Shown here in pieces: positions 1 through 51,625 of a stretch of 64,000 nucleotides of DNA (within the stretch, counting starts at the first letter, position 1; every line of letters begins with the position of its first letter). Made by a program: the position numbers and the translations under genes. The notes under the pieces are model-generated. The model worked only from the letters and a program-made list of their open reading frames with translations, had not been told where the DNA came from and did no database searches. Origin of the DNA: Citrus sinensis (lineage: Eukaryota > Streptophyta > Magnoliopsida > Sapindales > Rutaceae); contig NC_068558.1 of the NCBI RefSeq assembly GCF_022201045.2, positions 51,625,501-51,689,500 on the forward strand, in the 5' to 3' direction.

Positions 1-1617
1 AATGAGAAGAGTAGGGTGACAATGAAGTGTTCGGCTTCAGGATGTACATGGAGAATACATGCGAGTCCAAATTGGAATAAGAAACATTTCCAAATTAAAA
101 CTCATTTGCCCGAACATACTCGTGAAAGAAACAGCAAAAACTATGAAGCAAATTCAACATGGATTGCTGCTACATTCCTTCATTTATTCAGAGCTAACAC
201 AGAAGTTCATATTGATGTGTTCGGGTCAGAATTATTCAGAAATTATGGGATAAAATGCTGCAATCAAAGGCTTTACAGAGCCAAGAACAAAGTCTTAGAG
301 CTGCTTGGTCAAGACCATAAGGCCAGTTTAACAAAGCTATTCAGGTACATGCATGCAATCTTAGCCTCAAATCTTGGTTCAACAGTGTCCCTAGAAAAAG
401 ATTGGCTTGGTGGTAGGGTGAATCTTCACTTTAAAATTTTTTTTGTATTCTTTGATGCATGTAGGAGGGGTTTTGTTTAGGGTTGTAGGCAGTTCATTGT
501 TGTAGATGATTGTCACTTAAAGGGTCTGTACAAAGGGGTTTTACTATCTGCTGTTAGTGTAGATGCCAACTACGGCATATATCCACTGGCCATGTGTGTT
601 GTAGAAACTGAAAACACTGAGTCTTGGGTTTATTTTATAGAGAAACTTTATGATCAAGTATGTTGTAACGATGGTGAGGGTTTGTGCTTCATAAGTGATA
701 GACAAAAGGGTATATTGAATGCACTTGATATGGTTTTTCCTCGGGCCATGAGAAGGTACTGTTGTAGGCACATATATGCAAACTTTAAGCTGAAATTTCC
801 AGGAATCTTGCTTAGGAATGAATTTTGGACAGCATGTAGAAGTGGAAACCAAGTGGAGTTCAACAATCATATGGCTGAAATTAACAGCATCAGCCATGCT
901 GCCCATAGGTGGCTGTTACAAATTCCTGTGACATGTTGGGCCAAATATTGCTTTTCCACACAAACCAAATGCTCACATGTCACAAATAATATGACGGAGT
1001 CCTTTAATAATTGGATAAGTAGCTTTAAAGGCATGCTAATAGTAAGAATGCTTGAGGAGATTAGGAGAAAAATTATGATCCTCATACATAAAAGACATGA
1101 GCTGGTCAATACTTGGCAAGATGAACTGCCTCCACTTGTTAGGAGAAGAGTAATGGAAGCAAGGGTTGAATCTAGGGCATTATCTGTAATATTTGGGCAC
1201 AATAAATCATTTGAAGTTATGGAAAATGTCTCCAAGAGGTGTGTTGTAGATATAGGCAGCAAGCACTGTGATTGCGGGGAGTGGGATATATCAGGCTTGC
1301 CTTGCAAGCATGCTATATGCTGAATTGATGCAATGAGGTATAATGTAAATGAATATGTCCATTCTTTGTTGAAAAAAAAGTGCATTTATGAAAACCTACC
1401 AGCACCAATTATATCCAGTGCCAGATGAAAGTAGATGGCCATTACTCCCACATGATAACTTGCTGCCACCAACTATCACTAGAGCTGCTGGCAAGCCCCA
1501 AACTAAAAGAAGAAGAGAGAATAGTGAAAGACAACCATTTAAGAGGAGCACAAGTGTAAGATGCTCTAACTGTGATGAGTGAGGCCACAACGTGAGGAGT
1601 TGCAAGTTTATTACCAA
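1..1617 (+). pseudogene. Decayed MULE (MuDR-type) transposase, truncated at window start
   Basis: One reading frame runs from the window edge to 1323 and carries the MuDR-type N-terminal zinc-binding region (C..C before an H-rich stretch near 30-110). The MULE transposase core follows: VVDDCHLKG at about 499-525 (first acidic residue), FISDRQKGI near 688 (second), the CRHIYANF motif near 757-780, and a candidate third acid in NNHMAEI near 860. A SWIM zinc finger (CDCGEWD...PCKHAIC) lies near 1266-1320. The frame is interrupted by TAG at 478-480 and TGA at 1321-1323. A frameshift then precedes the conserved YPVPDESRWP segment near 1412-1440. A CCHC zinc knuckle at 1562-1600 is split by TGA at 1580-1582. 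The transposase would cut and paste the element, but this copy cannot make an intact protein. The 5' part lies outside the window. Confidence 0.9.
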
Positions 1618-3369
1618 AGTTGGAAAAAATAAAAAATTAGTAAAGAAGAACTTCTATCAGGTCTTAGTTACTTGTTTGTAATGAAGTTTTTATATTGCTT
1701 TTGTTAGTCTTTGCCTATTTATATGATGAACTAAAATATTTTAATTATTTAAATGTAGGATCGAGGAGCGACATCCAGCTGTAACAAAAAAGAAGTTGTC
1801 ACATGTGGTCTAGCCATGAACACTCAGAACAGTGTCCATGAAAATGGTAAGCATTTCGTGTCTAGTTTATTTATTTTTTACACATATATACAAGTTTAAT
1901 TTCACCACCTGTTTGTTTTACTAATGTTGTAATTCCAAAATAATATGTTACATTTTAATTTTTGTACATTTTATTATGAAGGACAACTTACCCAAGAATG
2001 ACCATTGCCAAGTTAAAGCATCCAACAGCATTACAAATATGTTTTTTGTAATTATGGAAAGAGCAGTAGTGAAGCTAATCCCTTCTAACAAATTCTTTTG
2101 AGGGATCAGATGATGCATCACCTTAACTGTAAGCATTGCTATGAAGATGTCGTATCATCTTTTTGTCACTCAACCATAGATATAGGTTTGAGTTTTTGTA
2201 CATTTTGTAGTTGTGTGGTACATACAAACACACACTTTTGATGGGGCAATATATGCCTTGCCTATTTTTGTCATTTCAAGTAGATATTATAGGTGATAAC
2301 TTCCTGTTATTCTAAACAGAGGGTATTGTTATTTGTATTGGCTAATAGGAATTCAGCCATTGATGACATGTGATACTCTTATTGTTGCTGGAATGCATAC
2401 GTCTTTATAATCTAAATATAAAAAAATTATGTGCTTTATATTGTTTCAGTACTTCATTCCTTATTGATTTTAATTTGTTGATTAAGGATTGAATATTTTA
2501 TGGCAGTCAAGGGTTAACTTCAGCAAAGGCTTATGTTCTTGTTATGTTTGACATTGTCAATTTGAACAGCAGCATTTCCTCAGCATTTCCTCTGCTTGTA
2601 CATGTTATTATGAAATGAGACTTGCTTTGTTTGCGAGGACAAATGGATATATAGTTTGTGCATATTGTTGTGTGTTATTAGATGTATGTTTCTTAAGAAA
2701 TTAACTTGAACAATGTGCTATGTTTGTGCTAGGTGTTATGAAGCGAGTTGCTTGTATGTACTTGTTGAACTTACTAAAGGATGTAACTGCTCATGTGTGT
2801 TATTTATTGTGTGTGCTGGATATGTATAGATATGAACAGCAACATGTGCTGGGTTTGTGGTGGTTCTTATGAAATAAATTGTTGTGTGTCAGTGTGTGCT
2901 TGTTGTCTTTTGAACAACAGCAGCTTCCCATTAACAAAGTTCTTCCAAGCTGGCTCATAAATTTGTTGCATGCTTGATTGGCTGGATGTGTTTGAGCTAT
3001 CAGAATCCATTTAGTTGAGACAATGCATCAGTTTCTTTATGTTGAATGCTGTTGTGGATGAGTTGAATGAATGATGAGTTTGAGACAAATGCAAAGATTT
3101 TTTATACCTTTGTTGAATGCTTATGTTGATAAGAAGAAAATGAAGAATAGATTGTACTTTGTGATTTACTAAGCCTCCATTTATAGCAACTGCTGCTGCT
3201 CAAATTTTTACCGTTTACTTACAACTGCTACTTTTATAAATTTATTTTAGTTTTACTTTTTTTAAATAAGCACTGTCAATTACTTCATATAGTTGGGCAT
3301 TTTGGTCTTTTTTGAATTTTTGTGATTCCCGCCATTTTTAATACCCATCAGTTCTCATCCATTTTATTT
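1618..3369. other. Non-coding interior/3' part of the MULE
   Basis: AT-rich DNA with no convincing gene. It lies between the transposase remnant and the probable right terminus, so it is best read as 3' untranslated or internal element sequence. A stretch near 1760-1845 might hold a last decayed transposase exon, but I could not establish a frame. Confidence 0.4.
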
Positions 3370-3525
3370 AACAATTTATTATTTTGGCGGGAAGGGTATT
3401 TTAGTAAATTTAATAGTCAACTTAACTTATACTTAACGGCGAGGGAGGTATGTGTAATTACATTAATACTTTCTATCAAAGTGTTAATACTTCAAACTTC
3501 AGGGGAGGTCCTTAAAAATTACCCC
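3370..3525. repeat. Probable right terminal inverted repeat of the MULE
   Basis: Read on the minus strand from 3525, this begins GGGTAATTTTTAAGGACC and continues through CTCCCCTGAAG, a typical start for plant MULE termini. It runs through a GGCGGGAA box near 3386-3394. It lies downstream of the transposase remnant in the right orientation to be its 3' terminus. The matching left terminus would be before position 1, so the pairing and the target duplication cannot be checked here. Confidence 0.5.
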
Positions 3526-3739
3526 ATACAAAAATAAGCAGCTCATGTGCTAACAAAATATAATGAACTATAGCTTTAGATAATGAGCAATAGCTTTTTG
3601 ATAACTTATGTAGATTCTCTACTTATTTATCTCTATTATTTAATTTTGTAGTCAATTACTTCATTTTCTACCCGAGATGGTACATGTACATAATACATAC
3701 TTACAAAATTAGAACCATACTTGACGTGTTCAAAAATCT

Positions 3740-4330
3740 CACTTCATTTGTTTAAACAACTTAAAATAGCTAACACTTGATTTATTCAAAAGACTTAATC
3801 AGTTTTTATTTGATTTATTCAAAAGACTTACTCGACTTAATACTCGTTGTATTCAAAAGATTTACTCAACCCCTACTTGATGTGATAAAAAAAAAAAAAC
3901 TTACTTGACTTCATCAAACAACTTAAAATAATTAATATTCAAATTGTTCAAAAAATTACTCATCTCCTATTTATCATTTTCAAAGGACTTAAAATTAATA
4001 CTCAACTTATTCACTAGACTTACTCGACTTATTCGTAAACTTACTTGACTTCTACTCGACTTGTTCAGGGACTTGTTCTACTAATTATCCCAAATTATTC
4101 TATACTACTCGACTAATCTTCTGGCTTGTGCTTTACTACTAGACTTACTATTACTCGACATATCTCTCGACTTCATATCCGACTTACATCATAACTTACT
4201 CGACTTACTTCAATTTTTGTTACACTAGATACTCGACTTACTTGACTTCTTGTTCGACTAGATACTTCACTTCTTGCTCAACTTAATACTCGACTAACTC
4301 AAATTCATACTCGACTTGTTCTTGGAATTA
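3740..4330. repeat. Diffuse degenerate repeat rich in CTCGACTT
   Basis: The words CTCGACTT, CTTGACTT and CTCGACTA recur more than a dozen times at irregular spacing of roughly 10-40 bases. They are interspersed with ATTCAAAAGACTTA. No reading frame is present. It looks like an old, diverged tandem array rather than a clean satellite. Confidence 0.6.
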
Positions 4331-6820
4331 TATTTCAATCACCTAAAATTTAAATTGAATATTTTGATTTTATATCCCTACATTTTATGTAATTGTGTGT
4401 ATGTGTGCAAGCACTAAAATGTATAATATACTATTACAAACTAATAAACTCATAAATCATTAGCAAATATACTTGTAATGAAATCAAATCAAACCCTCAC
4501 CAAACAATTATGTAAAATGTTTATATTTCAAAAATACATAATCCACCACTTGATAATGCACCAACGAGACTATTTTTGAAGAGTTTATTTTTTATTAAAA
4601 ACCTTTGTATTGGAGGTAAGTCATGAAATGGTGAGAGATGAGACAACCACGAGAGAGGAAGAAGGAATTGGTGAGGTGTGAAAAAATATGAAATGGTGAG
4701 ATGAGAAAATGTAGAGGTAGATAGTTTTTAATGGTATTTTCAACCTTTTCTTCCTTGGGACATATGTATGAAATGGGTTATCAGTTTGCTATTTAGGAGC
4801 AAATGGAGTACATTTGAAGAAAAAAACCCAAAATCAATTGGGACCAAGTTCACGTGCGGTTCACAAGGAAGACAGCCATGGATAGTGTTTTACGGTTGGA
4901 TTGCTGTGCGCTGTGGGATTGTCCGACAATTCTTCGGTAGGAATAGTCGCAGGACATGTAACACACGTGTGGGGAAACGTCGGCAATACTCAATTCTCAG
5001 TTGGTGCTTTATATGCATAAAATAATTTTATAATAGAAATAAATATCTTTTATTTAATTAAAATAAGAGATAAATTAAAAAAAATAAAAATCTATTTATA
5101 AAATCTGTTAAAATAATTTTAGATAAATATCAATCATAACAGAAAACGAAATAAGTCTACTCCATCGTAGTAGTAATGCAGACATGCAGTGACCGTGAGC
5201 GAGCAAGTTGCTATTACATTATCACCAAGCTGGCCTACATGTTTGCAGGTAATGAAACGCGTCACGTCACCCGTTCTCAGCCACTCGTACCAATCATCTC
5301 AACGCCAGCTCAATGATTGTTCAAAAACAAGCAAAAAATCAAAAATCAAAAATAATAAAATAAAAAAGCGGCTAAGACTAAAATACCAATTTGAAGTGTC
5401 AATGGAATTGAAGTCCATTGTGGAACATGACTCTCAACATCCTTAAAACTATTAAAAGGTTAATGTCTGTACGAGATATTGTCCTAATTATGGAGAGAAG
5501 ATCATATACAAAAATCTCATGCAATGTACATCATACATACTCGTACAATCATACTGGATTCTATTTTTAATTTTTTAAAAGAAATTTTGAACAATTTTAT
5601 CAGTTAAATAAAGAAAAATAAAATTTACAAGGTGCTGACGCGGAATCGAGGGGTATCCAACTCCAATGATTGGAAAGGAATGGTGTCTAGTAAGCGAGGA
5701 CAAGAAAACAATCGTGGCTGCAGCAAGATACAGCACGTGTAATAATCTTTCGAAACAGTACACGTGTCAGAGAGCACATGCTTGAACACGTGAACTCTGG
5801 ACATATTATTTATGGGCTGCTGGCCATATTTTACACCACACTTCCTCACGTGAACTACACTCGCCCTCACGGCCACTCTTGGACCGACAAATTAAATAAG
5901 TAAAAGCTTTAAATTAAACCCGATTAAAATTGAGGAAATATCAATTAACCCAGTAGTGATGTCTGCCACATGGACACGCACGTGGGGGGGACTTAATCGT
6001 GCAGCCGACATCTCAAATCATTTTGCTAAGTTTCACGCCCACCTGTGGCGCAATTCAGTTCAAAGTTGTAGGAAGATTAGGTAACTACTCGGTTGCCGTG
6101 TGTAATCTTTTTTCAAAGGCTAGCAAACATCCACAAAGCGCCTCATAAATCACTTGAAAATTCAAATCACCGACTTGCGTAAAATTTTTAATCATCGATA
6201 GTATAATGTTTCTAAATATTATTTAATTGCCAACATAAAAATTAGAACGCTATTTAAATTTTGTACGCTTATCGTCTTTTCAAAACATAAATCATATAAC
6301 ATGCACAACTATTATATTTTGTGTAATTTTAGGAATTATTAATCATAATACTTTGTTGAAATAACAAATGAATATTATATAATTATTGAAGCGGAATTTT
6401 TTGTATGTTAATTCTGAAAAAGTAATAGTTTAATATTTGTCTGGATAGTGCTATGGCCAATGAGTGAAATGATGATTTCACGGTGAAAATTTATCTTTAC
6501 ATCAAATCTAACTTAAAATTACAATATACCATAAAATTTGAGGAAAAAATATTTTTTTATAAATCAACTAAAAAATTAGGAAAATATTATTTTTCGTAGT
6601 CAAATGTATTAGGTTTTTTTTTCTTTGTTTTCAAAGTATAAAAGTATCAATAAATAATCCGGACATTTATTGTTGTAGCATACAATAGTGGAAATAATAA
6701 AAGAGAATACCGAGCTAATTTTAATTTATGATTATTATTGTTTCACTATTTTAAGAATTGAAAAATATCAAATGGTTACAATAAGTATTGTTCACTATCA
6801 TTATGAGAAATGTTCCAGTC
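4331..6820. other. Gene-free intergenic DNA
   Basis: No exon-like or RNA-gene-like sequence was recognised. Several ACGTG words (for example near 5734, 5760, 5789 and 5848) resemble G-box/ABRE cores, but there is no adjacent gene for them to serve. The short open frames here have no recognisable protein features. Confidence 0.4.
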
Positions 6821-11600: not shown

Positions 11601-12290
11601 TCACATTCTTTAAATATTTTAATTTTTCACTAATGCTTAGAAAAAAGAGAAGTAAAATTTTACGTTGTTAAGCATTTTAATATTTCACTCATAGTTGTAA
11701 CTTTTTTATAATTTTAAATATTTTGATCACTTCTTTTAGACAAAGTAAGATTTAAGGATTCTTATTTCTTATTAATAATAGTAGGAATTCAGTGTAAAAA
11801 GTTCAAACTATCTTCTTTTAGATATAAATTTACCAAAATTAAGGACTCAAAAACTGTGAACTCAAAGATTTAAACCAGGGTTAAGTTGTGCTAGCTCAGC
11901 AAGCCTATGAGCCCGAGGTATCTCCATATCATCATTGAGCCAACAGGGCCACTGAGGCACTGTCACAAAGTAAAATTAAAATTTCTCTCTCTTTCAATCT
12001 CTGTAAAGCTTTATATATATATATGAGTCAACCTACCATGCAGCGCTGTATCTCATACAGCACATGCATGCAACCGGTACAACCGGTTTTTAACCGGATA
12101 ATATAATGAAAATTATATTTTTATTTGTTTTTAATGTGAAAAAATTATGAAAAAATTTGGAAAAAAAAGAGTAAAATTTTAATTAAATAAGGAAAAAGAT
12201 TGTAATAATTTAAAATTTAAAAATAGTACAAAAAATATAAACATATCACAAAATGGTTACATTCCTACTTATTTTGTCACATTCCAATAT
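8661..12290. other. Gene-free intergenic DNA
   Basis: AT-rich DNA without recognisable genes. Local islands of higher G+C near 9230-9480 and 10780-11220 contain short open frames with no domain or family resemblance. An inverted repeat of TCAAAGAATGAC lies near 9069-9140. A segment near 12040-12180 resembles sequence near 32800-32960. Confidence 0.4.
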
Positions 12291-14420
12291 TTATAATGCA
12301 TATTTCAAGTTTACTTTTCAAATTCCTATTTCTAGTAATGATTTATCTAAATTTTTGTAAGTTGTTTCAACTCATTTTCCCACTAGCTTTTGGTTCTATA
12401 TTTCCACTCTTTTCATCAACTTCCATATTTTTTGATAGATATTTCAAGTTTATTTTCATATCTCTACAATTTGTTAAACTTTATCTAGTTTTTGGTAAAT
12501 TATTTCGATTTATTTTTCCACCACTTTTTTGTTCTATATTCCTACTCGTTTTATTAAATTCCAACATTTTGTTTAGAAATTTCAAGTTCAATTTTTAGAT
12601 CTCTATTTTCTGTTAAAATTTATCAAATTCTTGTTAAGTTATTTCAACTTTTGGGTTAACTTCTTCTACTCTTGTTTCCACTACTTTTTGGTTCTTTATT
12701 CCAATTCTTTTAATTGATTTCTAATATTTTGGTTAAATATTTCAAGTTCATTTTATAGATCTCAACTTATTGTTAAACTTTATCATATTCTTGTTAAGTT
12801 CTTCGAACTTTTAGGTTATGCTCCCCAACTCTTGTTTCCACCATTTTTTTTGTTTTATATTTCTACTCTTTTCATTGAATTTAAGTATTTTTCGTGAATG
12901 TTTCAAGTTTATTTTTTGATCCCTAATTATTGTTGGATTTATCATATTCTTGGTAACTCTTTCCGAATTTTAGGTTAACCTCTTCAACTCTTTTTTCCAC
13001 CACTTTTTGGTTTTATATTCCTACTCTTTTTATTGAATTCCAACATTTTATTTGGAAATTTCAAGTTAAATTTCTAAATTCCCACTTTCAATTAAAATTT
13101 ATCAAATTCTTAGTAAGTTGTTTCAATTTATTTTTCCACCGGTTATTCGTTCTATATTTCCACTCTTCTTATTGAATTCCAAATTTTTAGGTTGATTTTT
13201 CAAGTTTATTTTTTATATCTCTATATCCTGTTAGACTTTATCTAGTTATCGTTAAGTTGTTCCAACTTATTTTTCCAGCACTTTGTGGTTCAATATTTCT
13301 GCTCTTTTTATTGAATTTCAAATTTTGGGTAAATATGTCAAATTTACTTTTTAGATCCCTACTTTGCGTTAGAATTTATCAAATCTTTGTTAAGTTATTT
13401 CAACTTTTGGGTAACTTCTTCCACTCTTGTTCCCACTACTTTTTGTATTTGTATTCCAATTCTTTTAATTAATTTCTAATATTTTGGTTAAATATTTCAA
13501 GTTCATTTTATAGATCTCAACTTATTGTTAAACTTTATCATATTTTTCTTAAGTTCTTCGAACTTTTAAGTTATGCTCCTCAACTCTTGTTTTCACCATT
13601 TTTTTTGTTCTATATTTCTACTCTTTTCATTTAATTTAAGTATTTTTCGTGAATGTTTCAAGTTTATTTTTTGATCCCTAATTATTGTTGGATTTATCAT
13701 ATTCTTGGTAACTCTTTCCAAATTTTAGGTTAACCTCTTCAACTCTTTTTTCCACCACTTTTTGGTTTTATATTCCTACTCTTTTTATTGAATTCCCACT
13801 TTTTGTTTGGAAATTTCAAGTTTAATTTTTAGATCCCCACTTTCCATTAAAATTTATCAAATTCTTGGTAAGTTGTTTCAATTCATTTTTCCACCAGTTA
13901 TTTGTTCTATATTTCCACTCTTCTTATTAAATTTCAAATTTTTAGGTTAACATTTCAAGTTTATTTTTTATATCTCTATATCCTGTTAGACTTTATCTAG
14001 TTATCGCTAAGTTATTCCAACTTATCTTTTCACAACTTTTTTGTTCAATATTTCTACTCTTTTCATTGAATTTCAAATTTTGGGTAAATATGTCAAATTT
14101 ACTTTTCAGATCCCTATTTCGTGTTTGAATTTATCAAATTCATGATAAGTTATTTCAACTTTTAGGTTAACTTCTTCTACTCTTGTTCCCACAACTTTTT
14201 GGTTCTGTATTCCAACTCTTTTTATTGATTTCTAACATTTTACTTAGATATTTCAAGTTTATTTTCTAGTTCTCGACTTATTATTAAACTTTATCATATT
14301 TTTGTTAAGTTCTTCAAACTTTTAAGTTATGCTCCTCAACTCTTGTTAAACTCTAATAATGGTTTTATGTTCCTATTATTTTTATTATATTCCAACACTA
14401 CCAGTACATGTTTCAGGTTC
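12290..14420. repeat. Higher-order tandem repeat array (5 monomers per ~755 bp)
   Basis: The word TTCAAG (or its diverged equivalent) marks equivalent monomer positions at 12304, 12443, 12581, 12741, 12902, 13060, 13199, 13337, 13496, 13657, 13815, 13954, 14092, 14252 and 14412. The spacings are 139, 138, 160, 161, 158, then 139, 138, 159, 161, 158, then 139, 138, 160, 160. Monomers of two length classes are therefore arranged in a fixed five-monomer order with a ~755-bp period. Blocks one period apart are nearly identical; adjacent monomers are much less similar. The strand is strongly pyrimidine-biased and non-coding. Confidence 0.9.
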
Positions 14421-15460
14421 TTTTTTTTTACTAATAATAAATTACTTGTTGAAAATAACAATAATATCAATAAGGCAAATTATGGTTGACCCCTTACTAT
14501 TTTAACAAATATCAATTTACCACATAATACTAAGAATTTTTTTATTGCAACCCTTCATCATTTTCAACATTTTGAGTCCATAATCTAAGTCCTTTTTTTT
14601 TTCATCTTCATTACTTCATGCAATCTTTTGAGTTTGATTGTATGTATACTTGAGCTTTTAACTTTTATACATATCTATTCTCATTGTAATCATTTTAATT
14701 AATAGCGTTTAATTATATTAAAAATAAATCTATGCATTTATTTTCATCTTTCTCTTTACTTTTCAAATTAATTGCTTTAGTTTTTCATAACGTCAACGGT
14801 AAATAAATAAATAACAAGTAAGAAGGATTGCAATTGCTATGCTTCTAAAGCTATGATGATATAAGTTAAGTTACAAAAATACTTTAATTTACAAGATTAA
14901 AGTTTAGTTAATCTATTTTAGTTGAGCATCTCTATTTTTTTTTCTGTGTGCTTGTTGGATATTACTACAGTTATTATTATTAATATCATATCCTGTGGGA
15001 TTTATAATTAAATATAATAAGAATGTACATATGTCCTACGCTATTTTTGCACTCGATGGATATCATTAACATTTTGATTATGCAATTGATTTTTGCAAGT
15101 TACAAAAGAGTGATGATGTATGACAAAACTTCCACGGATAAATTTGTTGTGACCATTCAAAATCTAAAAATTCATTTTTGTAATTTGTAAATAATATTTT
15201 CATTGAGGCGGTAGTTTTACTTGCCAAAATTTTTCTATGTATAAATTTTACATAAAAAAGATATATTTTAAACTTTTGTGCTAATATAAAATTAATTTTC
15301 TACAAATATATTGATAATTTAATATAGATGAGATATATTACTTTGTAAGTATATTAATAATCACGTTGTGGGTACTAATTAATGCAGTTGTAAATCATTT
15401 GAATTAAAAACAAAATAGTTGATGTTTGAATCCATGGGAGTAAATTTAGTTGTTATTAAG
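14421..15460. other. Gene-free AT-rich DNA
   Basis: No reading frame, RNA gene or clear element ends were recognised between the tandem array and the interrupted SINE. Confidence 0.4.
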
Positions 15461-15462
15461 CT

Positions 15463-16740
15463 AAATTAGCCACTTAGGCTTTAGCCCAGTGGTGAACCAT
15501 TGACCTTATGGTGCGTTTACGTCATAGAATGAGAATGTGGTAGAATAGGAATGGGCTGGGAATGAGAATGAGTTGGAATGAGAATGCGATTTTAATGTTT
15601 ACTCGGCAAAAATAAATGGGAATGAGAATGTGCTGAAATGTCATTGATGTATTTACTTGACAAAATAAATGGGAATGAGGAATGTGAATGAAAATCAATT
15701 TACCAAAATACTTATAGTATTAATAATTAATAAAAATAATTAATTTATCATTATTAACAATATTATCATTATTGTTGTTTTTATTATTACTATTATTATT
15801 AACATTTATTATTATTAAATTTTATTGACTTTATTATTTTAGTTATTATTAATTATTGTTATTATTATTTTTATTAATATTATCATTATTAACATTTATT
15901 ATTATTATTATTAAATTTTATTAACTTTATTATTTTAATTATTATTAATTATTGTTAATATTATTTTTATTAATATTATTATTAACATTTATTATTATTT
16001 TTAATTAATATCATTTTTATATCTAGATAATGAAAATTAGATTATTATTACTATTAAATTTTATTAACTTTATTATTTTAGTTATTATTAATTATTTTTA
16101 TTATTATTTTTATTAATAATAATAAAAATAATGATAAATTAATTATTTTTATTAATTATTATTTTTATCATTATTTTTATTGTTAATAATGATAATATTA
16201 ATAATAAAAATAAAAATAATTAATAATAACTAAAATAATAAAGTTAATAAAATTTGATAATAATAATAATTATCATTAATGACATTTAAAATAATAATAA
16301 ATTTTTGATAAATTAAAATAATAAAATTAATTGTGATTTGAATGAGGGTAATTTAGAAAATATGAAAAAATTAGAGGAATACAAAAGTAAACATATATTT
16401 CATTCACATTCCCAACCCCCGGGAATGAGATTCCCATTCCTTATTCCCAAATTGTGTGGGACCCACACATTTTATTCTCATTCCCAAATTACATTTTGCC
16501 AAGTAAATATATGTTTCATTTTTATTCCTTCATTCTCATTCCTCATTCCATGAAGTAAACACACCATTAAAGTAAAACATGACTATGAGGGCAATAATTC
16601 GAGTCCTCATAGACTCAAACTCCCTTAATTAAACATAATTATATGGAGATTATTTGTAAAATTTTTCTCCCTTACGAAATACAAGTGGAGTGGAGACACT
16701 CCTCCTCCGTGAGGGTTATTTGTCTGGGCACTTACTTCAT
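15463..16740 (+). mobile_element. tRNA-derived SINE, interrupted by a Tourist element
   Basis: The head (about 15463-15508) has a pol III A-box-like TAGCCCAGTGG at 15482-15492. The B-box-like TAATTCGAGTCC lies at 16595-16606, just beyond the inserted element. Head and tail join colinearly with the SINE copies near 22605 and 50608. The body after 16606 is diverged, and its 3' end near 16740 is approximate. Confidence 0.6.
15509..16566. mobile_element. Tourist-type (PIF/Harbinger) MITE
   Basis: The terminal inverted repeats are TGGTGCGTTTAC on the left and GTAAACACACCA on the right. They are flanked on both sides by TTA, the usual 3-bp target of this superfamily. Sub-terminal GAATGAGAATG-type words are inverted on the other side. 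The centre (about 15710-16310) is an imperfect palindrome made almost only of ATT/AAT triplets. No transposase is encoded, so movement would need one supplied elsewhere. Confidence 0.85.
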
Positions 16741-18360
16741 AGAATTTAAAATGTAATAATATAAGTCTCAGTTTGTATATCTAATTGTAAATATCAGTGT
16801 AATAATCTGCTGTTATAACAGTTGTAAATATCTGTGTAATACAGTAACATGATGCTTAATCAGTTAAAAAAAACTAAATTGAAAAAATTATATTCAAATT
16901 CAATTTCTTTTACCACTAGAATAAAAGTATATAAATTAAATTTAGCGAGAATTACAGTGAAAACATATTTCATGTGGCAAAGATTATAACAAGCTTAAGA
17001 CGTATAAATAAAAATGAATTTAAAAGACTATATTTCTCCCCAATGGCATAAAATGTTTTAAAAGTAAATTTAGTAAAACATACTGCTTACTATGAAAATG
17101 AATTTATATTTTTCATATTTTTAAATAATTTAATTTTTTTTGGTTGTGATATAAATTAACTTAATTTCAAAAAAATATAGATATAAATTTAAGATTGAAC
17201 ATATTTTATAATACTTGCACATCATTTAGTAGACAAATCATGTACCCATATAGTGAGTGCAATGTTACTCAAATAATTTAATTTAATTTAGAAATATAAC
17301 TGTCATGCTTAAATTATATAACTATAAGTATAACATAATACAACATTATTCAATATTAGTTGCATTCAAATTGTAATTATCCATGTTATGTACCATTATG
17401 AATTTGATTAATGTTTAACAAAAAAATTATTATAGCAAAAAGGATTAAATAAAATAATTAATCTCACTTAAGATAGTATGAATTAATTTGCACAAGAGAT
17501 TGATTATGAGTTTTATTTAAAAATATCAAATATTAGATGCTTTATATTTTTGTAATATATGAATATTTGTTTTAGAGGGTATACATAAAACATACTAATA
17601 TTGGCCACTAATAATAACAACAACAACATTTGAGGGGTAATTACGATGTTTGGAATGATAATTATTTGATAGTTGGATAAATATTGTCCTCATTTTAGTA
17701 GGTAGGGATTTAAGTCCTTGAATGTGAATCGTGAGATCCTGGAATTGATTTCTTCTAAATATCTGGAAATAAATCGATTTCGTTATATGTTTAGATACTC
17801 GGATTCTAATGTAATTAAAAGTTGATAAAATTATTTTGATAGTTTTGTAAGCAAAATATCATTATATTTATTACATAATATTAAAAATAGTGCAATTAAT
17901 AAATTAAATTTTTTAATTAATATATAATTATTTCCATTTATTATATTTAAATAGTATTCTCATTAGTACATAAGTTACATTTTTTAAGGCAAAATATCAT
18001 TAAATTTATAATGTAATATTAAGAAAAATAATATAATTATTTTTATTTAAATATATTAGTCCAATTAATTTTATTTAATTATGTTTCTTTTAGGATATAA
18101 GTTAAATATATTAACTATATTTTCCATGAATCAAAAGAAAAAGGAAGTATTTTTTTGGTGTAAAGTTGAGGGGGTCTTTGATAATTTACTAGTTTTGAAT
18201 TGATTATCTTAATATTTCCTAAAATGAGGGAGTTCTATGATAGTTTCTTTTAACATTTGCCGCTTTAAGCGATTAAAAGGAGCGAATCGGTGGCCGGTTA
18301 CATCCGCATTATTAAAAAAATAATAAAGGCAGCTGCATGACATGCAGCACTGCATTACAG
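16741..18360. other. Gene-free DNA upstream of the HD-Zip gene
   Basis: Very AT-rich, with no exons recognised. The last few hundred bases are presumably promoter of the downstream homeobox gene. Confidence 0.4.
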
Positions 18361-18370
18361 CCCGACCCTA

Positions 18371-22604: not shown

Positions 22605-22733
22605 ATTTGGGCTTAGCCCAAGTGGCTAGAGCCACTCCTCACAAATGTGAGGGAAGTGGTTCGAGTCTCCGCAGACGTATTGTAGGGGTTTAATTTAAAT
22701 GTCCTTCCTTGGAGTCTCAGAACTTGAGTGAAG

Positions 22734-24102
22734 TGAAATACAAGTATGCAACCCAAGAGGGGGGGTGAATTGGGATTCTAAAAAAATTATTCAATATTAA
22801 AGAAAATCTTAATGCAAATATAACTCAAATTCAAAGCAATAACAATTAAGATGATCACAATATAAAAAGATAAGGGAAGAGAGATTCAAACACGAGATTT
22901 TTACGTGGTTCGGCCAACCTCGCCTACGTCCACGCCTCCAAGCTTTCCGGGCTTGAGGATTCCACTAAGCAAGCCTCCAAGGCTTCAAATGCTTACACTT
23001 GACTTCCAAGGTGTCAATGGACCTTTACAACAAGAGATTATCCCCAATCTCTTAACCCAAGTGTATCCCAACACTTACAATCACTCAAAGTAAAAGATTA
23101 CAAATTGTTTTGCCTCTCACAATATATAAGATTACACAATGATGTTTGATATGTGAGTAGATGAAGCAAGAATGTGTTCTAAGCTCTATGAAGATTGTAT
23201 TCTCGAATATTAGCTCAAATGGTTGTGTTGTGATCAATCTTCTTTGAATTTGAATGAGCTTATTTATATTTGGAGCTGAAAATCTAGCCGTTACAAACTG
23301 TCGGACAGAAAACGGTTCGCCGTTAGCCATTAACGGTTAACCGTTTAGGCTGGTCAAAGTTACCGTTGAGCCAGATTTCAAATAAACGGTTTGCCGTTTA
23401 GGATTGCCCTTTCGCCGTTAACTTCCAGAGACCTGCACAATGAACATCAGTTAATCCGTTTTCATTTAGCGGTTAAGGGTTTGCATAAAGTGGCTTCTCT
23501 GGGTGTTATCGGTTGACCGTTTAAAAATAAACGGTTTGCCGTTTGTCTCCAGTAACCTGCACAATAAATTAGCCTTATCAGTTTTCGTTAATCAATGCCA
23601 GAGGAGGACAACCTTCAATTCTGGACGTTATCGGTTAACCGTTTAAAATAAACGGTTCACCGTTAGTGTCCAGTAGCCTTCCCATCTTTGGTGTTTCCGT
23701 TAAGCATAAACGGCTAGAGCTTAGGCAAATATGTTGCTCTCTGGTGATAATCGGTTAACCGTTTAAAAGCAAACGGTTTACCGTTAATTTCCAGTAACCT
23801 CCCTATCCATTGTGTTTTCCGTTTTCCATAAACGGTTAGAGGTTTAGGAAATGTGTTACTCTCTGCCTATAATCGGTTAACCGTTTAAAATAACCGGTTC
23901 ACCGTTTATAACCAGAATTGCAATTTTAAACATGTTTTTGCAGAGAATTTCTTTCTAATTTGAAAAACCATCTTTTATGAAGAAATAAGGCAATGATTAA
24001 AAGAGTTTTCGTTTATTAAGAAATAGCTCCAATATTTATGTCAAAATACATTTAAAATTTGTTATCATCAAAATCAATATTATTAACATATTTATGTTAA
24101 CA
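22734..24102. mobile_element. Solo LTR (or LTR-like insert) within the SINE
   Basis: The insert begins TGAAATACAAG and ends TTAACA, the TG...CA ends of an LTR. It is flanked by TGAAG at 22729-22733 and 24103-24107, a 5-bp target duplication as made by LTR retrotransposons. Removing it rejoins the SINE. At 1369 bp it has no gag or pol coding and no second LTR, which fits a solo LTR left by recombination. The TTACGTGGTTCGGCC word near 22901 is, as I recall, found in repeats of other plants. Repeats at 23280-23930 are listed separately. Confidence 0.65.
23280..23930. repeat. Tandem ~121-bp repeats with hairpin cores
   Basis: ATCGGTT marks unit starts at 23508, 23630, 23750 and 23872 (spacings 122, 120, 122), with a more diverged unit near 23332. 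Each unit starts with CGGTTAACCGTTTA, followed within a few bases by TAAACGGTTCACCG or a variant. These two are reverse complements, so each unit can form a stem of about 14 pairs with a tiny loop. The array lies inside the LTR-like insert. Confidence 0.85.
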
Positions 24103-31815: not shown

Positions 31816-34605
31816 GATGCCGATATCTATTGCCACTGTTCCATCTAATTTTTCGTGCTTATATTTTTATTGAATGCAAGTTGATGAAATGCTATGTTTT
31901 TTGTTTTTTATATTTATTTCTTTGTTAAGTTGAGAATGAGAAGAATGACGGGAGAAGAGCCTTCTTGGTTTTGGTCCTTCCCACAAGGAAAGTCTTCGAG
32001 ATACCTGGGAGTTTAATGATGTATTTACCAATCGAGAATGGAAATAAGTTGAAATGGTAATTTTTTTTTGTTGTTGTTTAATTTGTATTTTTTGCATTGT
32101 TAAAAGATAATTTGGGAAAATTGAAAATGTATTGAGTAATCTTAGGAATGGAATTCTGATTCCTAATTGCTTAAGAATCAGAATCTCATTCTTGATTCCC
32201 AACAATAACAATCTAATTAATTTTATAAGAAAATAATGTAGTAATTCTTATTCTAATAATCTCATTCCCGTTATAAATTAATAAGCACTCTATAAATTAC
32301 ACAGTGGGTTTTTTCAATTATTTTTCCATGTAATATGATTGCAAACATACAAATCTATTCTCTTCTATATAATAATTCATGCTTTTTGTTATTTTAGTTA
32401 CACATGTCACTTTATATATTAGATGATGAATCTTATAACTAATAAAATTATTATAACATCTAATAAATGAAAGTGGCAAGTAAATTGATAGATGAATGTT
32501 TGATTTATTTTAAATGTTAGGGTAAGAACCGTATTAAAAAAATGGAATGTAATATAATCAATCATTCGCCTGCGTGTGGAGTTTGAGAGGTGAGGTTTAA
32601 GCATCAAATTTTGAAACTTTGAGGTCTTACTGTCGAATTAGTGACAATTTTTTTGTTTAAAGAAAAAAAAAATCATAATCATGTCATTGTAGCCGATGCC
32701 AATAATTTGTTTATTTTTGTTAGGATAAAAAAAAAATAAATGAAAGAAAGGTAAAAAAACATATCAAAGAAAACTGGGTCCGTTTGACATGCCCCACGGT
32801 ATCTTATACAACGCTTGCAAACAAGCAATACGACTGATTTTTAACCGGTTAATATAATAAAAATTATATTTTTATTATTTTCAATTCGAAAAGATATTGC
32901 AGAATTTTTATACTTTATAAACAGTACAAAAAATTACAAAAATAATATAATGGCCATGGCCGCCAAGATGCGTGCTGCGTAGAACAAAGACAAATCCAGC
33001 CAATTTTACAGCAATTTTCATCATCAAGATTAAGTAATTAATTAGTATCAACTACTACCATCAAAAGCAAAAGTCAAAACTCTCAAGTCCCAATACACTG
33101 AAAACTAGCGAACAAGCCGATGGCTTATGGAGAAAAGGATAAAAATTTCATAATTAATAACAACTCTTACCTCAAATTCTAATTTCTTTTCTCCTCCCAC
33201 AGAGTTGTTTCATCTAAAAAATAAATTTGAACTAATAAACATCTCAAGAGATATTTAATACAAGATATGAAAACAACAAGACAAAAACTAATTACATACA
33301 AATTTGTGCACAATTAAAATTCACAATTTGTTCATTAGTTATGTGTCATCCATAATTAGTTTTTGTGTGAAAAGTGTCAATTGACTTTATTATTTATTAT
33401 TAATGTGCTAATTTTATAACCTCTATCAATGAGTGACTCATCATTTAAAATACAAACTATATAAAGTGTAATATCACTCTTGATGGTATCCATAAAACCA
33501 TAATATTATGTGTAAAAAATAAGAGTGGTAATGTTAAAATCATGCTCACATGAGTGGAGAGGGAATTAGATTGTTATTATCAAACTATAATTAAAAAAAT
33601 AATAATGTTGAGTTTTTTTTTTTAATGATCGGATTATAATATTGAGTGTTGTTATACCATTAATCACAATTTCATATGTATAATATATATTATGCAATAG
33701 ACATTGAAGGCTAAATGAAATAATTTTTAACATGTTCAATTTCTATGAGATAATTTTACATGCATAAGAAGTCGTATGCATATTACTCAAAATATCATAA
33801 GAAAACTCGAAAAGATGGTACTTTATGTTTATACATTGTTACTCAAAAAATCAAATTAATACTCCATATGATGATGCTTTATATTATTTTCTACAAAATT
33901 AATTTTGTTCTATTGATTTTATTAAAAATTTGATGAGTAATTATAAAATTTGTTATATTAGTTATAATCGGTTTAGGATGAATTGGATTTATAAAAGTAT
34001 AAAAATTATGCTCATTAATATTAACTTTCCTTATTCAAATAAAAAAAAAAAAGGGCTAACGGTTCCCATTTTTATTTAACATTGTTCGTGTTACACCGAG
34101 GGGGTTTGATAATTTTATAATTTAAATAGCTTTATTTTGAAGTTAGGTAAAGAACAAGTAGCCATCTGATAATTGCCATTGGCTTTGCCATATAATCAAA
34201 TAATTCACAGCCCGCCCGTTTCGGTAGCCGGATTTAACTGCAAAATGTAGTGACCGTTGGATTGCCTCATTAGAAATCCAACAGCCAATGAATTTTAAAT
34301 AAAAAATTCAAATGCCGCTGTATCCTGTATGTGACACAGCGCCGCACGGCAAGATACAAAAGATTAATAAATAACTTAACTGTTAATTGATAGTTAATAA
34401 ATAAATAATTAATTAATCTTATTTATATATCACCCACGAATGAATCAACTGAAGTAATGATGTGGTTTCAATGATATTTATTATTATTATATTCAACAAG
34501 AGCAGGGACACATTTAACCAGCGACAGCGAGCCAAAGATAACACATAGCGATTAACTAGCAACAGGGAACGAGTATTTTCAGTTAGTACTAGGAAGTAGG
34601 AAGCT
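31816..34605. other. Gene-free DNA between PTPMT1 and FKBP20-2
   Basis: No exons recognised. A possibly decayed Tourist-like element lies at about 32012-32290, and a segment near 32800-32960 resembles one near 12040-12180. The last ~100 bases are the probable leader of FKBP20-2. Confidence 0.4.
32012..32290. mobile_element. Possible decayed Tourist-like MITE
   Basis: GATGTATTTACC with GAGAATGG on the left, and CTCATTCCCG with TTAATAAGCACT on the right, are loosely inverted. They resemble the ends and sub-terminal words of the Tourist element at 15509-16566. The match is weak and the borders uncertain. Confidence 0.3.
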
Positions 34606-50607: not shown

Positions 50608-51625
50608 CACTAGGCTAAAACCTAGTGGTTAGAACCCATTCCTTACAATTATGAGGTCATGAGTTCGAGTCCCCACAATGCATTGTGGGGGTTTTATTTT
50701 CTTTCTCAATTTGAGTGAAGACAATCTTCTCTCTTTCGAAATGTGAGTAGAGTAGACATCCCTCGAATATTAGAGAGTAAAGGTGGACTTTATAAAAATT
50801 GATATAAACTAGTCCCATTAATATTAATTGTAATATCATTTAATATAAGTTGTGCTCTTGAGTAATAATCTGCATTGTGGAGGTTTAATTTTCTTTCTCA
50901 ATTTGAGTGAAGACGGACTTCTCCCTTTCGAAATGTGAGTGGAGTAGCAGTCTTTTCCTTTTCGAAAAGTAAGTGGAGTAGACATCCCTCGAATATTAGA
51001 GAGCAAAGGTGGACTTTATAAAAATTAATGTAAACTAGTCCCATTAATATTAATTGTAATATCATTTAATATAAGTTGTACTCTTGAGTAATAATCTATA
51101 TTGTGGGGGTTTAATTTTCTTTCTCAATTTGAGTGAAGACAGTCTTCTCCCTTTCGAAATGTGAGTAGAATAGACGTCCCTCGAAATGTGAGTGGAGTAG
51201 CAGTCTTCTCCTTTTCGAAAAGTAAGTGGAGTAGACATCCCTCGAATATTAGAGTAAAGGTGGATTTTATAAAAATTGATGTAAACTAATCCCATTAATA
51301 TTAATTGTAATATCATTTAATATAAGTTGTACTCTTCAACAATAATCTACATTGTGGTGGGGGTTTAATTTTCTTTCTCAATTTGAGTAAAGACAGTCTT
51401 CCCTTTTTTGAAATGTGAGTGGAGTAGACGTCCCTCGAAATGTGAGTGGAGTAGCAGTCTTCTCCTTTTCGAAAAATAAGTGGAGTAGACATCCCTCAAA
51501 TATTAGAAAGTAAATGTGAATTTTATAAAAATTGATGTAAACTAGTCACATTAATATTAATTGTAATATCATTTAATATAAGTTATACTCTTGAGTAATA
51601 ATCTCATGTAAAAAAAAAAAAAATT
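50608..51625 (+). mobile_element. tRNA-derived SINE with tandemly amplified body
   Basis: The head has an A-box-like region near 50616-50630 and a B box GAGTTCGAGTCCC near 50661-50673. The body starting ATTGTGGGGG at 50682 is repeated at 50874, 51100 and 51351 (intervals 192, 226 and 251). Later units differ mainly by an extra internal GGAGTAGCAGTCTT segment. The final unit ends in an A-run at about 51611-51623. Only the first unit has the promoter head. The sequence is pol III-type and encodes no protein. Confidence 0.8.

Follow-up and report, generated by a model that had tools for sequence, protein, structure and literature searches.

The tandem array at positions 12302 to 14409 of the window (the whole 64,000-nucleotide stretch of Citrus sinensis DNA analysed here) forms, in our reading, the left (5') subterminal part of a non-autonomous Mutator-like element (MULE) that has moved recently, and we give this reading a probability of roughly 0.85. 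A preliminary description, made from the letters of the window, had proposed two origins for the array: it might be the starting point or a remnant of a larger family of satellites, or it might be a tandem segment inside an element that had gone unrecognised. The second proposal is supported, as the array is located inside a 6,344-bp MULE-type transposon. The features of this element are as follows.

12016..12024 (no strand): left flank TATATATAT, at an insertion site within an AT-repeat; imperfect when compared with the right flank TATATTATA
12025..18368 (+ strand): complete non-autonomous MULE-type element, 6,344 bp, with boundaries common to 20 fetched copies, one of them broken
12025..12061 (+ strand): left terminal inverted repeat, 37 bp, palindromic core GCTGTAT-CTC-ATACAGC
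12062..12301 (+ strand): left subterminal stretch, from the terminal inverted repeat to the first anchored monomer, kept in relatives
12302..14409 (+ strand): tandem array with 14 anchored monomers (138/139 and 158-161 bp) and a higher-order period of 755 bp
12579..14249 (+ strand): core of the higher-order register, monomers 3-13, 86-97% identical one period (755 bp) apart, approximately 2.2 periods in all
14430..18331 (+ strand): AT-rich interior, without a long open frame and without a match to the transposase of the relatives
18332..18368 (- strand): right terminal inverted repeat, 37 bp, palindromic core GCTGCAT-GTC-ATGCAGC

Ends and copies of the element

MULEs are characterized by a target-site duplication of approximately 9 bp, and their terminal inverted repeats (TIRs) are long in TIR-MULEs and degenerate in non-TIR MULEs. 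The two TIRs of the window element are short and imperfect, agreeing at 26 of 37 positions, and their features fit only the degenerate (non-TIR MULE) class. The arms of the palindromes at the two ends differ in step, and the element termini read GAGTC...GACCC. The TIR core pattern, with at most two mismatches allowed, has 128 matches genome-wide (100 of which are listed), while the reversed-pattern control has none. The left subterminal stretch is 92-100% conserved among the 40 matches scored from 111 candidates. The longest stop-free frame in the window element is 123 amino acids. By tblastn of P0001 (E 1e-3) against the window and those fetched loci that exceed 1 kb, no transposase is found in the window element or in an older 9.2-kb relative (L049); the sole match is P0001's own locus.

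A genome-wide search with one 755-bp unit, which the preliminary description had proposed as a check, places the fetched matches in copies of one bounded element. The search gives 129 matches, and among the 40 scored of 136 candidates, 24 have the full score over all 755 bases. We fetched 20 loci. Similarity to the window begins at 12014-12025 in every one of them and the right end is at 18368; one locus, L024, is a broken copy. By hand count, 23 pairs of ends lie exactly 6,344 bp apart, on seven contigs. Two more copies, on C4 and C9, have a length of approximately 6.41 kb; in five older relatives it is 9.1-9.2 kb (two on C1 and one each on C2, C3 and C6).

Perfect 9-bp target-site duplications are present in 16 of the 22 copies that have both flanks read (14 of 18 in one comparison and two more in another). 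The copies without one are L016, L021, L023, L024, L025 and the window copy. The flanks of L023, L024 and L025 match one another's instead of their own, as expected from an inversion together with a nested insertion. All three are located in one region of contig C3 (G000:C3:39373602-39420524, which also contains L032, L048 and L060). In this region copies of opposite orientation have the flanks TAAATTTAG and CAATAAAG swapped around approximately 28 kb. One of the copies here has inserted into another at its array, with the duplication AAATATTGA. The arrangement looks like an element-mediated inversion.

How recently has the element moved? Among the 19 copies compared with the window copy (the broken L024 being excluded), 15 have no mismatch over 5,020 bp (4,020 bp for L009), and the other four have 1, 4, 3 and 1 mismatches. 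The spread of the element is therefore very recent. The occurrence of such near-identical sequences on seven contigs suggests very recent, perhaps continuing, movement.

Higher-order order of the array and its relatives

In the window the array has 15 anchors between 12302 and 14410, with spacings of 139, 138, 160, 161, 158, 139, 138, 159, 161, 158, 139, 138, 160 and 160 bp. On re-measurement the spacings given in the preliminary description are reproduced, a single one being off by 1 bp, and the fixed order of monomer lengths that it reported extends to the edge monomers 1, 2 and 14. The array is T-rich (50% T, 9% G). Compared with itself without gaps, it has a self-match of 0.695 at an offset of 755 bp, versus 0.50 at 139 bp and 0.48 at 160 bp. 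The maximum at any offset from 100 to 800 bp is 0.396 in 200 dinucleotide-preserving shuffles. The 755-bp period is thus stronger than the offsets of approximately 140-160 bp, both in self-match and in monomer comparison, where it corresponds to a lag of five. In an alignment of the 14 monomers the mean identity is 86.6% at lag 5 and 64-69% at lags 1-4, in agreement with the earlier statement that neighbours are diverged. When 13 monomers of the window array are used, none of 2000 shuffles of monomer order reaches the lag-5 identity (87.8%).

The statement that sequence is nearly identical one period apart applies to monomers 3-13 (86-97%) and fails for the edge monomers 1, 2 and 14 (76-77%), so that the good periods number approximately 2.2 and not nearly three. 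The counterpart pairs are 88% (E3/E8), 96% (E4/E9), 97% (E5/E10), 91% (E6/E11), 92% (E7/E12) and 86% (E8/E13) identical. Tandem Repeats Finder (TRF), run with periods up to 500 bp, recovers the array repeat solely as periods of 138-160 bp, 755 bp being outside this limit. The observed/expected CpG ratio is 0.46 in the array, 0.62 in the rest of the element and 0.58 in the rest of the window; we set this depletion aside as a weak sign of methylation history.

The same array is present beside diverged left ends. Array sequence is found within approximately 500 bp of nine out of ten further sampled left ends, the exception being L078. Among the 87 left-end matches, seven sites share the same two changes and form a subfamily with the left end GAGTCAACCTACAGTGCAGCGCTG (G000:C4:19220211, C9:4494877, C1:12627148, C1:14638031, C5:14711616, C8:5648275 and C8:20764691). 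Both of its sampled members (L058, L059) lead into the array. The older relative L049 has an identical 14-monomer layout and is 95.3% identical to the window element along 3.1 kb, while the periods differ from each other by approximately 12% within each of the two. The 755-bp pattern must therefore predate the split between the window element and L049, and it was copied afterwards.

Lag 5 is strong in L049 (87.9%) and in L053 (93.2%), and in both cases none of 2000 shuffles reaches it. L053 (G000:C8:14972000-14977760) has approximately 31 whole monomers, corresponding to approximately 5.6 units of 754 bp that are 97-98% identical, over approximately 4.7 kb. Other relatives have other orders. 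In L054-L057 lag 3 (437 bp) leads with 71-73%, versus 62-70% at other lags (p-values over all lags: 0.03, 0.012, 0.07 and 0.11 for L054, L055, L056 and L057, respectively). In the transposase-bearing element on C9, described below, a 2-mer (approximately 316 bp) leads, with 64% versus 48% in the last block of its array (p 0.018) and p 0.32 in the first block. The lengths 755, 437 and approximately 316 bp match the sums of 139-, 138- and 160-bp monomers as 5-, 3- and 2-mers. The 5-mer order is strong, the 3-mer order is weaker and older, and the 2-mer order in the transposase-bearing element is faint.

We crossed the 87 left-end matches with MULE-domain matches (150 scored of 899 candidates). 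On C9, C3 and C5, a left end with 2 mismatches in 24 is followed on the same strand, approximately 6.27 kb inward, by an open frame of 859 amino acids. The three frames are 99-100% alike, and the one on C9 has FAR1, MULE (PF10551 at 102 bits) and ZSWIM domains. The left flanks on C3 and C9 differ up to the element end, and the sequences are identical over the 6 kb compared 3' of the frame. These two loci are therefore either separate insertions or a duplication edged by the left end. On C9 most of the sequence from the left end (at approximately 101) to the transposase is array, with 30 monomer matches at positions 172-6002 of that sequence; this array, approximately 5.8 kb long, is interrupted by an unrelated insert of approximately 0.9 kb. 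On C5 (L068) the array is present in the first 1 kb read. The transposase nearest in identity after these three (70 and 66%, two frames) is located 20 kb 3' of an exact left end with the array. In the 25.8 kb of C9 only the left end of the transposase-bearing element is identified and no right end is recognised, and no transposase is found together with the right end of the window element. The autonomous partner is for this reason a candidate.

Origin and persistence of the array

The window element would move by cut-and-paste, using the transposase of relatives that share its left end and array; we infer that the 859-amino-acid transposase could mobilise it in trans. The higher-order pattern would arise via unequal exchange or slippage inside elements, and it is by such events that the periods would change. 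The pattern would then be frozen and multiplied to many sites by transposition, with relatives differing from one another.

It is tempting to hypothesize that the array is retained because it has a function. By analogy with VANDAL elements and their VANC proteins, it might serve as a cis-acting platform at which an element-encoded protein, either the transposase or an anti-silencing factor, would bind DNA at multiple sites. We propose this tentatively, at somewhat less than even odds. A more elaborate version, in which the element protein would bind the monomers cooperatively and recruit the transposase or block silencing, and in which the 2-, 3- and 5-mers would be successive re-tunings of platform and protein, seems unlikely to us. 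If this version is true, the turnover of a satellite-like library takes place within the transposons.

A serious rival to such a function, to which we give very nearly an even chance, is a neutral array that grows and shrinks by slippage and persists only through its adjacency to a left end needed for transposition. This explanation competes with the platform and not with the assignment of the array to a MULE. It is consistent with the T-rich, low-complexity sequence, with the variation of period and unit number between relatives, and with a binding-motif test in which the clustering of conserved monomer columns is not significant (p 0.096). It accounts less readily for the presence of the array after nine of the ten sampled diverged left ends and in the transposase-bearing relative, though these arrays are only approximately 68% alike. 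Per-column conservation is also correlated between E (the window element) and B (r=0.60), a value that shared ancestry, or an alignment built on the E profile, could produce as well.

Far less probable is an interstitial satellite, i.e., an array that began as the seed, or a small remnant, of a chromosomal satellite and was captured later by a transposon. The monomer length is near nucleosomal and the higher-order order is satellite-like, and in L053 the array has expanded to approximately 5.6 nearly identical units. Since the array has expanded inside one relative, a role as seed is conceivable in principle. Centromere-type satellites, however, form long arrays of tens of kilobases or more at centromeres with CENH3. 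The organisation seen here, which the preliminary description had likened to theirs, covers 2.1 kb inside element boundaries, and the longest arrays among the fetched relatives are those of L053 (approximately 4.7 kb) and C9 (approximately 5.8 kb including the 0.9-kb insert). The 20 fetched copies hold the array inside identical element boundaries (one copy being broken), and nine of ten sampled diverged left ends lead into it. The array is also found between the left end and the transposase in the diverged C9 relative, and must therefore be old in the element family.

A search with the monomer-core pattern gives a similar picture, with 336 matches in the genome and none in the reversed control. 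Among the 100 matches listed of these 336, 99 lie within approximately 12.3 kb 3' of a listed left end (hand count), the lone match without a nearby left end being C6:11311438. These 100 matches are dispersed in short clusters and include no long satellite block. The proposed link to a larger satellite family, as its seed or relic, thus finds no support here, and a free-standing satellite is rejected for the window array, whose copies share element ends.

A Helitron or CACTA-type element in place of a MULE is hardly conceivable: subterminal repeats are common in CACTA elements, but the termini GAGTC...GACCC fit neither type (Helitron ends read TC...CTRR), the left end is linked to a MULE-domain transposase, and the 9-bp target-site duplications argue against both and rule out a Helitron.

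Our preferred reading, an array that belongs to a MULE, has some practical consequences. Most work on higher-order repeats concerns centromeres, in which homogenisation is difficult to trace. When such repeats lie in a family of dispersed transposons, each insertion preserves a fixed state of the array that can be dated on its own. Because the movement is very recent and perhaps continuing, both the turnover of the array and its effect on transposition could be measured. An array on a chromosome arm that resembles a satellite may belong to a transposon, and element ends should be looked for first.

Known systems and other features of the window

Recent MULE activity in Citrus, FAR1-type MULEs and transposon tandem repeats that feed satellites are already in print. 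In Arabidopsis, VANDAL elements are described as having non-coding tandem repeats, including some upstream of VANA21, that expand, contract and diverge between copies (PMC5735166, PMC10398659). The window element resembles VANDAL21/Hiun and VANDAL6 in being MULE-type with degenerate TIRs and non-coding tandem repeats (PMC5735166, PMC10398659). The VANDAL repeats, in the same accounts, hold a short motif bound by VANC (PMC5735166, PMC10398659), while the monomers here are 138-161 bp long and have a higher-order order. Unlike in VANDAL, the transposase of the relatives is FAR1-type. Of the seven other stop-free frames with at least 110 amino acids in the 25.8 kb of C9, five were compared with Pfam and have no VANC-like domain; none of the five has a match above the curated cut-off, and two weak matches (HMG box, SNaCT7) fall below it.

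In Citrus clementina, CitMule is reported as a transposase-coding element of 6,926 bp with a TC-rich 5' end that contains GGG triplets (PMC4334395). CitMule shares with our family the FAR1, MULE and SWIM domains (here in the relatives), 9-bp duplications and short degenerate TIRs (PMC4334395). Judged by CitMule's description, the window element differs from it by having an array and no long open frame; the word "tandem" does not occur in the main text of the CitMule paper (PMC4334395).

In sweet orange, 31 of 40 spontaneous structural variants are attributed to three possibly hyperactive MULEs (PMC9832951). These three are recently active, as is the family described here; the one size given in the portion of the report at hand is 5,086 bp, versus 6,344 bp for the window element (PMC9832951). 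A possibly active Mutator-like MITE has also been noted in Citrus (PMC6466647).

Tetris of Drosophila virilis is, like the window element, a non-autonomous DNA transposon with internal tandem repeats, and these are reported to be able to expand into satellite-like arrays (PMC4079207). Tetris is portrayed as foldback-like, with repeats of approximately 220 bp in its TIRs and known satellite-like arrays (PMC4079207), whereas here the array occupies a single end and the listed matches include no satellite block. A barley MULE is singled out as unusual by its extra ORFs, and the available part of its report does not mention "tandem" (PMC9168764). Among the open PMC papers listed by our searches, none shows this element or a MULE family whose left end carries a higher-order array.

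Several other features of the window deserve mention. Inside the element, positions 15510-16575 are TTA-rich with inverted GAATGAGAATG-like ends, and perhaps represent an older nested miniature transposon. At 22731-24000 there is the start of a high-copy repeat, of which 1.27 kb is matched at at least 38 or so other places, often in pairs approximately 9 kb apart; it is likely the LTR of a retrotransposon. The segment at 32776-34370 (approximately 1.6 kb) has a left end 76% like that of the element over 122 bp and a related inverted end. By eye it has no array, and it is a possible array-less relative. At 50734-51604 a separate tandem array has units of 226/254 bp that match at 92-93% (TRF).
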